From: Planctopirus ephydatiae
GTDB lineage: Bacteria > Planctomycetota > Planctomycetia > Planctomycetales > Planctomycetaceae
NCBI RefSeq assembly: GCF_007752345.1
Contig: NZ_CP036299.1
Span: 2,309,001-2,373,000, forward strand
Direction of reading: 5' to 3'
Length of the DNA: 64,000 nt
Shown here: positions 3,942 through 8,427 of the stretch, piece by piece
Layout of the letters: each line of letters begins with the position of its first letter
Numbering within the stretch: position 1 is the stretch's first letter
Position numbers and translations under genes: made by a program
The notes under the pieces: generated by a model
Database searches by the model: none
What the model saw: the letters and a program-made list of their open reading frames with translations, nothing else
Told to the model about the DNA's origin: nothing

Positions 3942-4538
3942 TTACGAACCATCCAGTTCGACTGTCCAGTAGGCTTCACTCAGGAATTTTCTCCAGCTTT
4001 GAATCTTCAGATTGTGCCGGGAATAGAGTGGCTGCCAAGTGGGCCGAATTGGCATTTTCCGCAGGGGCATATGGGCTTCCTGAGGTGTGCGGTTCGCCTT
4101 TTTGTTATTACAGGCAATGCACGCCAGAACACAATTCTCCCAGGTACTGGTTCCTCCACGCGAGCGCGGTTGAACATGGTCGATCGTCAGTTCTTCTGAA
4201 CCCGGTTTTGCGTCACAATACTGACAGGTATACTGATCCCGTTTGTAGAGATTCAGCCGACTGAATGTCACCACCTGGCGAGGGACTCGATCATAGCCGA
4301 CTAAGGTGATGACCTCAGGGACGCGCAGGCGGAAGGTAACAGATTGTACGAAGGGCTCATCCTGCTGAGGGATGAGTCTCGACCAGACTTTCCAGGTGTA
4401 GAGTTGATAATCCGCAGGATCAACAATGCGCGCTCTGCCACTGGCAACGAGAGATAATGAACGTGCCACAGAAGCGACACCGACCGGCTGCCAGTTTCGA
4501 TTGAGCACCAGGGTGGGTCTTGTCAGCATGGCAACCAC
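3942..4538 (-). CDS. Stand-alone HNH endonuclease
   Basis: A 198-residue protein. I chose GTG at 4538 because AAAAGGAG lies eight bases upstream on the minus strand; ATG 4529 (MLTRPT) would fall too far from it. Residues 1-95 are a family-specific N-terminal region (VLNRNWQPVG). The HNH domain follows: zinc ligands C105/C108, catalytic D120-H121 in TIDHVQPRSRGG, N135 and the second zinc pair C140/C143. These small HNH proteins are widespread in planctomycetes and cyanobacteria; the biological target is unknown. No methylase or intron partner is present. It lies just 3' of the tRNA array on the same strand. Confidence 0.88.
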   Translation of the reverse strand: MVAMLTRPTLVLNRNWQPVGVASVARSLSLVASGRARIVDPADYQLYTWKVWSRLIPQQDEPFVQSVTFRLRVPEVITLVGYDRVPRQVVTFSRLNLYKRDQYTCQYCDAKPGSEELTIDHVQPRSRGGTSTWENCVLACIACNNKKANRTPQEAHMPLRKMPIRPTWQPLYSRHNLKIQSWRKFLSEAYWTVELDGS

Positions 4539-4731: not shown

Positions 4732-4807
4732 TGATCAGAGTGGGATTTGAACCCACAAATTCACCACGTTCTCGACATGGCCGCTTTTCCAGTTTGCGTA
4801 TCTGATC
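4732..4807 (-). tRNA. tRNA-like gene, apparent anticodon GAG (last in the array)
   Basis: The cloverleaf has a perfect 7-bp acceptor stem (GATCAGA/TCTGATC), a D-arm with three pairs (CGC/GCG), an anticodon stem CCATG/CGTGG, a perfect T-stem GTGGG/CCCAC and T-loop TTCAAAT. The anticodon loop TCGAGAA places GAG at 34-36, which would read Leu codons, but position 33 is C rather than the near-universal U. There is no long variable arm as expected for tRNA-Leu. No 3' CCA is encoded. The decoding identity is uncertain. Confidence 0.55.
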
Positions 4808-4833
4808 GTGTCAGTGAATCGATTCTCGATGAT

Positions 4834-4918
4834 TGATCAAGGGGAGAGTCGAACTCCCAAGCCCGAATCGGGCACGATGTTTTGAGCGTCGCGTGTCTAC
4901 CAGTTGCACCACTTGATC
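4834..4918 (-). tRNA. tRNA-Leu(CAA)
   Basis: A class II tRNA of 85 bases. It has acceptor stem GATCAAG/CTTGATC, the Leu-like D-arm sequence CTGGTAGACACGC, anticodon loop CTCAAAA (CAA at 34-36, U33 present), a long variable arm with a GCCCG/CGGGC stem, T-stem GGGAG/CTCCC and loop TTCGACT. The anticodon stem has a C30-A40 mismatch. No CCA is encoded. Confidence 0.75.
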
Positions 4919-5033
4919 GAATGATTGGACTCATTGAAGATTGATCATCGAACTTTCTGATCAACCCGTTTCTGAAAATCCTCTGGAATGCGTGACGAGT
5001 GAATTCTGTTTGGTATTGAGCTGTTTCTATGAG

Positions 5034-5115
5034 TGCGTCGGGACGGATTCGAACCATCAATGCCCGCAGGCGGGTGGGTTACAGCCACTTGAGTACGCCC
5101 ATACTCAGCCGACGC
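5034..5115 (-). tRNA. tRNA-Tyr(GTA)
   Basis: A class II tRNA with acceptor stem GCGTCGG/CCGACGC, D-stem GAGT/ACTC, anticodon loop CTGTAAC (GTA at 34-36), a long variable arm (CCCGC/CGGG) as expected for bacterial tRNA-Tyr, and T-loop TTCGAAT. The first anticodon-stem pair is an A27-C43 mismatch and the T-stem holds one T-G wobble. CCA is not encoded. Confidence 0.78.
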
Positions 5116-5124
5116 TAAATGTAA

Positions 5125-5195
5125 TGCACTCAGCGGGATTTCAACCCGCTCTTCCATACAGGAAGGACGGTACGCTGACGTTATACCATGAGTGC
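5125..5195 (-). tRNA. Degenerate tRNA-like gene, anticodon ambiguous
   Basis: The acceptor stem GCACTCA/TGAGTGC and T-stem GCGGG/CCCGC are perfect, but the T-loop is TTGAAAT, replacing the near-invariant C56 by G. The D-arm (GTA/TAC) lacks a GG at 18-19. The strongest central hairpin (CTTC/GAAG) shows GTA in a 7-base loop but leaves almost no variable region. An alternative fold with loop CTTCCTG would give TCC (Gly) but conflicts with the D-stem. At 71 bases it is the shortest member. It may be a decaying or non-decoding tRNA. Confidence 0.5.
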
Positions 5196-5274
5196 ACAGT
5201 ATGGATATGTATTTATCTATTTGTCGTTGAATCAATGATATCTGTTCACAGGATTCAGACTCTCAAAGACAAGA

Positions 5275-5346
5275 TGGGATTGGAGGGATTCGAACCCCCA
5301 CGAAACGAGTTAAAAGCTCGATGTGCTACCATTACACCACAACCCC
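5275..5346 (-). tRNA. tRNA-Lys(TTT)
   Basis: The acceptor stem is GGGGTTG/CAATCCC with one wobble. The D-stem is GTGT/GCAC and the anticodon loop CTTTTAA has TTT at 34-36. The T-arm is GGGGG/CCCTC with loop TTCGAAT. The pair 27-43 is T-T. No CCA is encoded. Apart from that mismatch it looks functional. Confidence 0.85.
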
Positions 5347-5450
5347 AATAGGGAGGGGTGGGGCGTTTATCGGGATTGTCGATAGTCATCAGGGGATCTT
5401 TACAATTGAATCAAGACGAATCGGTTGTGGAACAACTCCGAATGAAAGAA

Positions 5451-5522
5451 TCGGGAAGGTCAGAATCGAACTGACTTCGTCGTGTGCCCAAGACACGCGG
5501 GCGGCCGGTGCCCTTCATCCCG
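5451..5522 (-). tRNA. tRNA-Pro(TGG)
   Basis: The D-stem GGGC/GCCC, anticodon stem CGTGT/ACACG and T-stem GTCAG/CTGAC are all perfect. The anticodon loop CTTGGGC has TGG at 34-36. The acceptor stem CGGGATG/CTTCCCG carries a T6-T67 mismatch. No CCA is encoded. Confidence 0.82.
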
Positions 5523-5533
5523 AATGATTTCAA

Positions 5534-5606
5534 TAGCTCGTGTGGGATTCGAACCCAACCTGCCCAGCGTGAAAGGCTGGTAACCTCACCAGAAGTCGAA
5601 CGAGCC
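5534..5606 (-). tRNA. tRNA-Glu(TTC)
   Basis: The anticodon stem CCAGC/GCTGG is perfect and the loop CTTTCAC gives TTC at 34-36. The acceptor stem GGCTCGT/ACGAGCT begins with a G-T wobble. The D-stem uses wobbles (GACT/GGTT). The outer T-stem pair T49-C65 is mismatched; the T-loop is the standard TTCGAAT. No CCA is encoded. Confidence 0.82.
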
Positions 5607-5654
5607 AGGATGTCTGCTGGTGAATTGTGATTCAGTTCTGAACTGGAAATGAAT

Positions 5655-5726
5655 TGGGCTGGAAGGCGCTCGAATCCTTGTCTTCTGGTCTTCAGCCAGA
5701 CGCTACACCATCTCAGCTACCAGCCC
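5655..5726 (-). tRNA. tRNA-Phe(GAA), first gene of the array
   Basis: The acceptor stem GGGCTGG/CCAGCCC and anticodon stem TCTGG/CCAGA are perfect. The loop CTGAAGA has GAA at 34-36, and the D-stem is GCTG/TAGC. The T-arm is odd: the nearly invariant G53-C61 pair is replaced by A53-G61 (AAGGA/GCCTT, loop TTCGAGC). No CCA is encoded. The gene may be a divergent second copy of tRNA-Phe. Confidence 0.75.
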
Positions 5727-5759: not shown

Positions 5760-5805
5760 CAAGCCCGGCATCACACTGGCTGTTCAGCAGGTGATGCCGG
5801 GCTTG
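5760..5805. repeat. 15-bp perfect inverted repeat upstream of the tRNA array
   Basis: CAAGCCCGGCATCAC at 5760-5774 pairs perfectly with 5791-5805, and the 16-base loop contains a smaller GCTG/CAGC hairpin. No T-run follows on either strand, so it is not a typical terminator. It lies just upstream of the first tRNA gene and could be a leader hairpin of the array transcript or a processing signal. Confidence 0.7.
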
Positions 5806-8353: not shown

Positions 8354-8427
8354 TACGCCCATGTGGATTCGAACCACAGACCGTCGGATTAGAAATCCGA
8401 TGCTCTATCCAGCTGAGCTATGGGCGC
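8354..8427 (-). tRNA. tRNA-Arg(TCT)
   Basis: A canonical cloverleaf: acceptor GCGCCCA/TGGGCGT, D-stem GCTC/GAGC, anticodon stem TCGGA/TCCGA with loop TTTCTAA (TCT at 34-36), variable loop CGGTC, T-stem TGTGG/CCACA and loop TTCGAAT. No CCA is encoded. Every stem is intact apart from a terminal G-T pair, in contrast to the array at 4.7-5.7 kb. Confidence 0.95.

Follow-up and report, generated by a model that had tools for sequence, protein, structure and literature searches.

Whether a cluster of irregular transfer RNA (tRNA) genes on a bacterial chromosome still decodes, serves a non-ribosomal role or is simply decaying is the question raised by a locus of the planctomycete Planctopirus ephydatiae. 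In the window (the whole stretch of DNA analysed here, 64,000 bases of contig NZ_CP036299.1, positions 2,309,001 to 2,373,000), the minus strand carries eight tRNA-like genes between 4732 and 5726, i.e., eight in 995 bases, a density matching that of the so-called tRNA array units, and the original prediction, made from the sequence, had left all three possibilities open. We find that seven of the eight are not decaying and are kept by selection. From the sequence comparisons described below, we give about even chances to the array being a specialised set of redundant tRNAs linked to a response to RNA damage. On that reading, the locus would be a shortened, still functional chromosomal tRNA array, with seven selected tRNAs of unusual structure, a tRNA-Gly pseudogene and an HNH gene. 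In the order of transcription, namely Phe, Glu, Pro, Lys, a broken fifth gene, Tyr, Leu(CAA) and Leu(GAG) followed by the HNH gene, the features are:

5655..5726, minus strand: array tRNA-Phe(GAA), with 53-61 unpaired (A-G); 0/72 changes in two congeners
5533..5607 (Rfam limits 5534-5606), minus strand: array tRNA-Glu(UUC), with 49-65 unpaired
5450..5523, minus strand: array tRNA-Pro(UGG), with U6-U67; called by ARAGORN, no Rfam call
5273..5347, minus strand: array tRNA-Lys(UUU); called by ARAGORN and Rfam
5125..5195, minus strand: former array tRNA-Gly(GCC), a probable pseudogene (the fifth gene), with G56 and no D-loop GG; called by Rfam
5034..5115, minus strand: array tRNA-Tyr(GUA), with A27-C43 unpaired; called by Rfam
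4834..4918, minus strand: array tRNA-Leu(CAA), with C30-A40; occupies the Leu(CAG) slot of larger arrays (an anticodon switch, judged by eye)
4732..4807, minus strand: array tRNA-Leu(GAG), with C33 and without a long variable arm
3942..4538, minus strand: HNH endonuclease gene of 198 amino acids (Pfam HNH, 1.5e-15), 193 bases downstream of the tRNAs

When the array was compared among three genomes (P. ephydatiae, the complete genome of a congener, G001, and a metagenome-assembled genome (MAG) of another, G002, which carries locus L041; G001 and G002 are close to each other), the seven tRNAs were found to differ at 8/539 positions from G001 and at 9/539 from G002, while the spacers of the array differ at 91/575 and 90/575 (Fisher 3e-19 and 3e-18, respectively). 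Also between G001 and G002, the seven tRNAs differ at 3/539 positions and the spacers at 23/581 (Fisher 1e-4), and the anticodons of the seven have no difference in either congener. As a yardstick, 40 pairs of other tRNA genes differ at 6/3066 positions and their 60-base flanks at 652/4676, two of the 42 other tRNA genes having no partner in the congener set compared. Given this slow change relative to the spacers, the array tRNAs are considered to be under selection, which is looser than that on the other tRNA genes. A second array of the same genome, array A, behaves similarly at alignable positions, with differences at 43/1261 (tRNAs) and 186/1032 (spacers) against G002 (Fisher 4e-32) and at 39/975 and 114/535 against G001. 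The fifth gene of the window array, in contrast, differs at 19/71 positions in both pairs, if anything above the spacers (Fisher 0.03). Its G001 copy still has GCC in the anticodon arm, which identifies a former tRNA-Gly, and the gene is probably a tRNA-Gly(GCC) pseudogene; the RNA of the P. ephydatiae copy, the only one folded, nonetheless folds unusually well (z -5.1), the anticodon loop being replaced by one of five bases, and by that model could have been repurposed instead of being dead. In terms of the three possibilities that had been left open, therefore, decay is contradicted for seven genes (8-9/539 against about 90/575 in spacers) and supported for the fifth (19/71); tRNA genes that change like their spacers, as expected of a degenerate cluster, number one of eight, so that the array as a whole is not such a cluster.

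The calls themselves needed two tools: ARAGORN found six of the array genes in the window (Leu GAG, Leu CAA, Lys, Pro, Glu and Phe), and a genome scan with Rfam RF00005 placed seven above its cut-off (Lys 64.5 bits, Phe 57.3, Leu GAG 47.3, Leu CAA 41.4, Glu 41.3, Tyr 31.5 and the fifth gene 29.3), Pro being called by ARAGORN alone and Tyr and the fifth gene by Rfam alone. Combined, the two bear out all eight genes of the original prediction, and the irregular bases that it listed (those given above for Phe, Pro, Leu(CAA), Tyr, Leu(GAG) and the fifth gene) are present as well, partly by eye. It was also right that no array gene encodes CCA, which is uninformative; in a loose string test, a 3' CCA occurs in just 7/42 of the other tRNA genes, and we reject its absence as a sign of decay because the other tRNA genes of the genome mostly lack it, too. 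The tRNA-Arg at 8354, named as canonical, has 69.4 bits in Rfam and 0/74 differences from its congener copy. What had been overlooked is the HNH gene downstream, two further arrays in the genome and a gene order common to larger arrays.

The genome is a single contig of 5,214,061 bases, in which we read 42 other tRNA genes, mostly single with five close together in L003, together with array A near 1.556 Mb (17 ARAGORN genes) and array B near 1.306 Mb (6 ARAGORN genes). Canonical copies of Phe(GAA), Glu(UUC), Pro(UGG), Lys(UUU), Tyr(GUA), Leu(CAA) and Leu(GAG), i.e., of all seven intact anticodons in the window, are located elsewhere in the genome, and the seven window tRNAs share 50.7-62.5% identity with the housekeeping isoacceptor of their own genome (seven pairs). 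U33, the D-loop GG and G53-C61 are found in 42/42 of the other genes. The Rfam median is 50.95 bits for the 24 scored array genes versus 66.1 for the other 42 (Mann-Whitney 2e-7), and the anticodon and T stems carry an average of 0.12 mismatches per gene in the 42 others, compared with 0.67 for six window genes, 0.48 for the 23 from arrays A and B and 0.30 for the 361 array genes from relatives. High scores for all eight genes, or anticodons without other copies, were taken in advance as what would make these tRNAs ordinary and essential; in fact, low scores prevail and each of the seven isoacceptors has a canonical copy elsewhere, and the window tRNAs are therefore neither ordinary nor obviously essential. 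The anticodon-loop flanks (positions 32, 33, 37 and 38) furthermore differ from those of the housekeeping isoacceptor in 6/7 window tRNAs (Tyr by eye). Matches to arrays A and B form one locus in G001 and G002 but two places 250 kb apart in P. ephydatiae (L001 and L002 versus L188 and L189), and array A/B may thus have been split in P. ephydatiae by a rearrangement, such as an inversion whose ends lie in the array. Array A includes an Ile(UAU) gene, and canonical tRNA-Ala(UGC) and tRNA-Leu(UAA) were not found outside array A in an Rfam scan that scored 150 of 235 candidates; a group I intron as the cause of these missing canonical genes was considered, and no intron was found. Genes of the 23S rRNA intervening-sequence protein family occur inside or beside arrays (L001:5863-6237 and L189:2839-3183).

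The HNH gene gave access to related loci. Against G001 and G002, it differs at 36 and 33 of 597 bases with 4 and 3 amino-acid changes, respectively; the nonsynonymous rates (dN) of 0.011 and 0.009 and synonymous rates (dS) of 0.26 and 0.24 represent strong purifying selection. The best NCBIfam matches of the window HNH protein, all below the cut-off, are the HNH parts of IscB and Cas9 models. A second HNH gene with 40% identity is located outside the window, about 15 kb from the first (G000:C1:2297857-2298435), and matches of 39-48% identity are found in many of the 59 genomes searched. Relatives were sought in one genome per species over 84,980 species, and the best 80 loci were retained; our counts use the 59 best (L041-L099) and omit 21 weaker loci with 37-49% identity (L100-L120), one of which has a tRNA. 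Some of these overlap with the congener genomes (judged by length, L041 and G002:C375 are one contig, as are L046 and G003:C18, and further G genomes recur among the named loci), two loci come from one MAG in the cases of L045 with L049 and of L072 with L074, and many loci end at contig ends. In the fetched DNA, 11 of the 59 have at least 10 ARAGORN tRNA genes, 24 have 1-9 and 24 have none.

Arrays of 21 to 39 tRNA genes are present in L042, L043, L045, L046, L054, L068 and L072, and L046 (G003), which is of the same genus as P. ephydatiae, has a 35-gene array. The large arrays have a common order, roughly Phe-Glu-Pro-Ile-Lys-Lys-Thr-Gly-...-Leu-Tyr-Glu-Leu(CAG)-Met-Met-Leu(GAG)-...-Arg-His-[HNH]-Trp-Thr-Arg-Arg-Arg-Cys. 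Indeed, when the 11 large arrays are compared pairwise (55 pairs), a mean of 91% of the shared genes falls within the longest common order versus 40% after shuffling, and 52/55 pairs beat all of 100 shuffles. When Leu(CAA) is taken as the Leu(CAG) slot, the window slots stand in this order in 8/8 shared with L042, 7/7 with L045 and L046, 6/6 with L068, 3/3 with L054 and L092, 2/2 with L061, 1/1 with L094, 6/7 with L043 and 3/4 with L072, and none is shared with L047, where the locus starts late in the array. Under a literal reading of the anticodon, one fewer fits in 7/11 (7 in L042), the number is equal in L043, L072 and L092, and one fits in L047. We therefore reject an altered order in the window (Tyr before Leu(CAA)) in favour of an anticodon switch in the Leu(CAG) slot, to which the shared body, judged by eye, points and with which the order test is consistent. 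By its sequence and gene order, the window array is a shortened remnant, in the same order, of larger HNH-bearing planctomycete arrays with up to 39 genes. About 20 or more tRNA genes are the threshold for a tRNA array unit, above which seven relatives lie and below which the window array falls (eight genes, seven of them intact); redundant anticodons and an adjacent HNH gene, two further marks of such units, are both present in the window.

The original prediction had noted that such arrays are sometimes mobile. Carriage on mobile elements is common but not obligatory for tRNA array units, and it is not supported for this locus, which is chromosomal, has 8.1 kb around the array colinear at 94% in a congener (L041) and has larger relatives that resemble eight phage or plasmid arrays in gene order no more than expected by chance. 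Related HNH genes do occur within tRNA groups or at their edges on plasmids of Mycobacterium, Nostoc, Variovorax and Acidiphilium and in the phages Tunturi_5, Rctr197k, S-CRM01 and Mx1, with 4 to 31 tRNAs in the fetched stretch. These come from 16 loci chosen among 490 matching records, of which nine have at least four tRNAs, two have one and five have none; four plasmid and four phage loci of the nine were used for the comparisons of order and C33, and the ninth (Euzebya, 5 tRNAs) was excluded. Descent from any of the compared phage or plasmid arrays was rejected, as the order of the eight is no closer to L042 than shuffled order (54-300 of 300 shuffles equal; Mx1 has only four genes).

Are the irregular bases then the marks of damage? 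Compared across the relatives, they fall into four groups: those recurring in other genera (Phe 53-61, Tyr 27-43 and C33 of Leu(GAG)), the congener-wide one of Pro, the private one of Leu(CAA), and those of the dead or repurposed fifth gene. In array Phe, 10 distinct sequences were obtained from 11 of 14 planctomycete ARAGORN genes (L041, L097 and L098 were excluded as identical to included rows), and 20 of the 21 cloverleaf pairs are formed in every one of them, 10 pairs having changes on both sides; the remaining pair, 53-61, is formed in 0/10 and is always purine-purine (A-G, G-A or A-A). Similarly, Tyr 27-43 is A-C or C-A in 6/7 distinct array genes of relatives, Glu(UUC) 49-65 is unpaired in 10/13 distinct array genes, Trp 31-39 is C-A or A-C in 6/11, and Ser(GCU) 27-43 is unpaired in 9/18. 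U33 is replaced in 49/361 array genes of relatives, in 47 of them by C, and C33 is concentrated in the slots of Thr(CGU) (8/10), Leu(GAG) (6/8), Glu(CUC) (5/7), Gly(GCC) (4/7) and Val(GAC) (4/7). On distinct sequences of planctomycete arrays, this loss of U33 is significant against 0/42 in the other genes of P. ephydatiae (Fisher 0.005), the baseline for C33 as well as C38 being these 42 genes of one genome; a base other than U33 is also found in 7/41 genes of phage arrays (Fisher 0.005) and in 6/107 of plasmid arrays (Fisher 0.18, not significant). As ARAGORN favours standard loops, the counts of position-33 bases other than C may be too low. In Leu(GAG), each of the 21 pairs is formed in all 10 sequences (100% of cells), with double changes in 8 pairs. 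Phe 53-61, Tyr 27-43 and C33 of Leu(GAG) are, on this comparative evidence, old and retained departures. In contrast, U6-U67 of Pro is common to P. ephydatiae and two congeners and absent from the array Pro of L042, and C30-A40 of Leu(CAA) is found in P. ephydatiae only, with C-G in both congeners. The long variable arm is absent in 29/40 array Leu genes of relatives, 9/9 of phage arrays and 4/11 of plasmid arrays (four phage and four plasmid loci, including L123, L124, L126, L131 and L132) versus 0/4 of the other Leu genes here.

The neighbours of the larger arrays provide a further clue. A Band-7 (SPFH) gene is located within about 1.6 kb downstream of 6/11 large arrays (L042, L047, L054, L061, L072 and L094), and a TROVE/Ro60 gene lies within the same distance of two more (L045 and L046); Band-7 or TROVE is thus found at 8/11 loci with at least 10 tRNAs versus 1/48 smaller loci (Fisher 6e-7), among which TROVE occurs in L058 alone and Band-7 in none. 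L072 has an RNA ligase gene inside the array, and L094 has two RlaP genes further downstream. In P. ephydatiae itself, the stretch after array B contains genes for Band-7 and for a protein resembling endonuclease V, then a broken HNH fragment together with Trp, a gene matching AAA weakly and one for TROVE/Ro60. The corresponding island of G001 has an RNA ligase of the DRB0094 family (above the cut-off) and an Rsr-like protein (far below the cut-off), and that of G002 has Band-7, TROVE and a frame resembling the G001 ligase. Also, the stretch of phage Mx1 has TROVE and peptidyl-tRNA hydrolase genes as annotated, and that of Tunturi_5 has RtcB.

As to what the array does, we propose that its RNAs would be an alternative tRNA set made once normal tRNAs are damaged, for example by anticodon nucleases from toxins, rivals or phage-defence systems. 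Their altered arms and loops may make them poor substrates of such nucleases while anticodons and charging signals are retained, and translation could go on while the associated island's Ro60, Band-7 and RNA-ligase proteins handle the broken RNAs; the HNH protein would perhaps copy or keep the array. Expression, charging, nuclease resistance and induction by damage, as well as any role of the HNH protein, are what we infer. Phage tRNAs whose anticodon loops are altered have been predicted to withstand anticodon nucleases (PMC10264068; here and below, what is said of sources cited by PMC number holds for the portions of them drawn on), and the changed flanks in six window tRNAs resemble the pattern that was read there as escape from anticodon nucleases. 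More broadly, we entertain with less than even confidence that planctomycetes carry an inherited, near-complete and deliberately non-canonical second tRNA set coupled to a Ro60/Band-7/RNA-ligase repair island, i.e., a damage-proof backup for decoding kept by the cell and not by a phage or plasmid. In such a second set, and just as tentatively, many slots would have a recurring departure of their own: purine-purine 53-61 in Phe, 27-43 in Tyr, 49-65 in Glu and C33 in Thr, Leu, Glu, Gly and Val.

Several observations weigh against a functional set tied to RNA damage. The array tRNAs evolve faster than the housekeeping ones (8/539 versus 6/3066), and one member of the array is probably dead. The window Lys has the same anticodon-loop flanks as the housekeeping Lys, which is unexpected under nuclease escape. 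C33 should weaken decoding, and in P. ephydatiae it is present in Leu(GAG) alone (1/6 ARAGORN genes of the window and 0/23 in arrays A and B), so that it is no general mark of array tRNAs. Further pair types in Leu(GAG) number 15 versus a shuffle mean of 15.9, with no excess. The HNH gene can persist without an array, as 24/59 HNH loci have no ARAGORN tRNA. Regarding the repair genes, the stretch of L047 counted as Band-7 has a stop codon, a search of the G001 island gave no Band-7 match, and Band-7, TROVE, RlaP, RNA ligase and RtcB have no match within the window; the RtcB gene is located elsewhere in the genome.

The array RNAs might instead be decoys, which bind tRNA nucleases or Ro60/Band-7 proteins instead of decoding, as tRNA-like Y RNAs may. 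The TROVE and Band-7 genes adjoining large arrays and the C33 of several slots would fit such a role, which we nonetheless regard as unlikely; many different anticodons are retained in large arrays, the window Pro retains C1-G72 and A73 (by eye), and one Leu gene combines a CAA anticodon with a CAG-slot body while the other CAA slot is missing, which suggests that codon reading matters. Less likely still are ordinary extra tRNAs, which would enlarge the tRNA supply or serve the codons of acquired genes. The anticodons are indeed standard, and a role in codon usage has been proposed for one Ile(UAU) gene of such clusters (PMC4807772), but canonical genes already serve all seven anticodons, and dosage needs neither a sequence divergence of 37-49% nor recurring mismatches. 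We consider it improbable that the array is a selfish HNH element, in which tRNAs are kept as targets of a homing endonuclease or as handles for recombination: while the HNH gene is under strong purifying selection and its relatives lie inside or at the edge of plasmid and phage arrays, array A keeps its tRNAs although nothing but a broken fragment matches HNH near arrays A and B, and the double changes in RNA stems mean that selection acts on the folded RNA and not on DNA sites. A decaying relic, namely a former mobile cluster of dispensable tRNA genes now rotting, is slightly more improbable. The loci of relatives do range from 39 tRNA genes to one or none, the fifth gene drifts, the Rfam scores of the array are low, and PMC4807772 terms planctomycete clusters degenerate with partially degraded, maybe dispensable tRNAs; yet change in the seven genes is about ten times slower than in the surrounding spacers, which refutes decay for seven of eight unless the low rate has a mutational cause, and changes on both sides preserve stems while the same irregular positions recur at other loci. 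Least probable of all are aminoacyl donors for cell wall, lipid or peptide modification. The unusual T-arm of Phe and Glu could weaken EF-Tu binding, and the set lies outside the canonical tRNAs, but such pathways do not generally use many amino acids at once, and no aminoacyl transferase family was matched among the searched neighbours in the window (HNH, a sulfatase and a 62-amino-acid frame) or the searched neighbours of other arrays.

Upstream of tRNA-Phe, one more feature was noted:

5760..5805, no strand assigned: hairpin (inverted repeat) with perfect arms of 15 bp

It occurs once per genome, is identical in P. ephydatiae and two congeners and has no exact match in a third, and is a possible control or processing element; its single copy rules out a repeated element. 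A promoter scan gave 2 promoter-like sites versus a mean of 2.9 in shuffled sequence, i.e., no excess.

tRNA arrays, HNH genes inside arrays and planctomycete tRNA clusters are already in print (PMC5966550, PMC12803027 and PMC4807772). The array units with HNH of Mycobacterium, found on chromosomes, plasmids and phages (PMC5966550 and PMC12803027), resemble the window array in having dense tRNA genes redundant with the chromosomal set, in sequences unlike the housekeeping isoacceptors and with an HNH gene inside (PMC12803027), and an M. intracellulare plasmid carries a related HNH gene within an array of 28 tRNAs. Unlike those units, the window array is chromosomal, colinear with its surroundings in a congener, of another gene order and shortened to eight, and its selection has been measured. 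The trn operon of Anabaena PCC 7120 (PMC10272220) is, like the planctomycete arrays, an extra tRNA set, and a Nostoc plasmid has a related HNH gene at the edge of its 21-tRNA array. The Anabaena operon can be silent until translation inhibitors induce it, and the repressor acting on it also governs rtcB, HNH genes and a slipin (Band-7) gene (PMC10272220); it differs in being plasmid-borne with 26 genes and a known induction. The degenerate tRNA clusters of planctomycetes (PMC4807772) belong to the same phylum and are probably the same kind of locus, with an Ile(UAU) named there as in array A; their genes are called partially degraded, whereas those of the window array are mostly under selection with recurring irregular features. 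Repair islands with Ro60/Rsr and Band-7 resemble the large arrays and array B, which have TROVE, Band-7, RlaP or RNA ligase genes. Such RNA-repair islands were reportedly described by Burroughs and Aravind in 2016. Broken tRNAs turn on the Salmonella operon rsr-yrlBA-rtcBA (PMC7790460). Islands of this type differ in having a single tRNA-like RNA versus a multi-gene tRNA set, and no such genes lie beside the window array.

In the open-licence full-text literature, we found no account of selection, slot-specific irregularities or a Ro60/Band-7 link for planctomycete clusters, and our result on selection contradicts the only account of these clusters found there, which describes them, in the portions drawn on, as degraded and perhaps dispensable (PMC4807772). 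The departures of the array are defined against rules (U33 and G53-C61) obeyed by 42/42 other tRNA genes of the same genome. With array tRNAs under selection on the chromosome of a free-living bacterium, the purpose of redundant tRNA arrays becomes testable, and the link of large arrays to Ro60, Band-7 and RNA ligase suggests tRNA damage as the condition that may be relevant.

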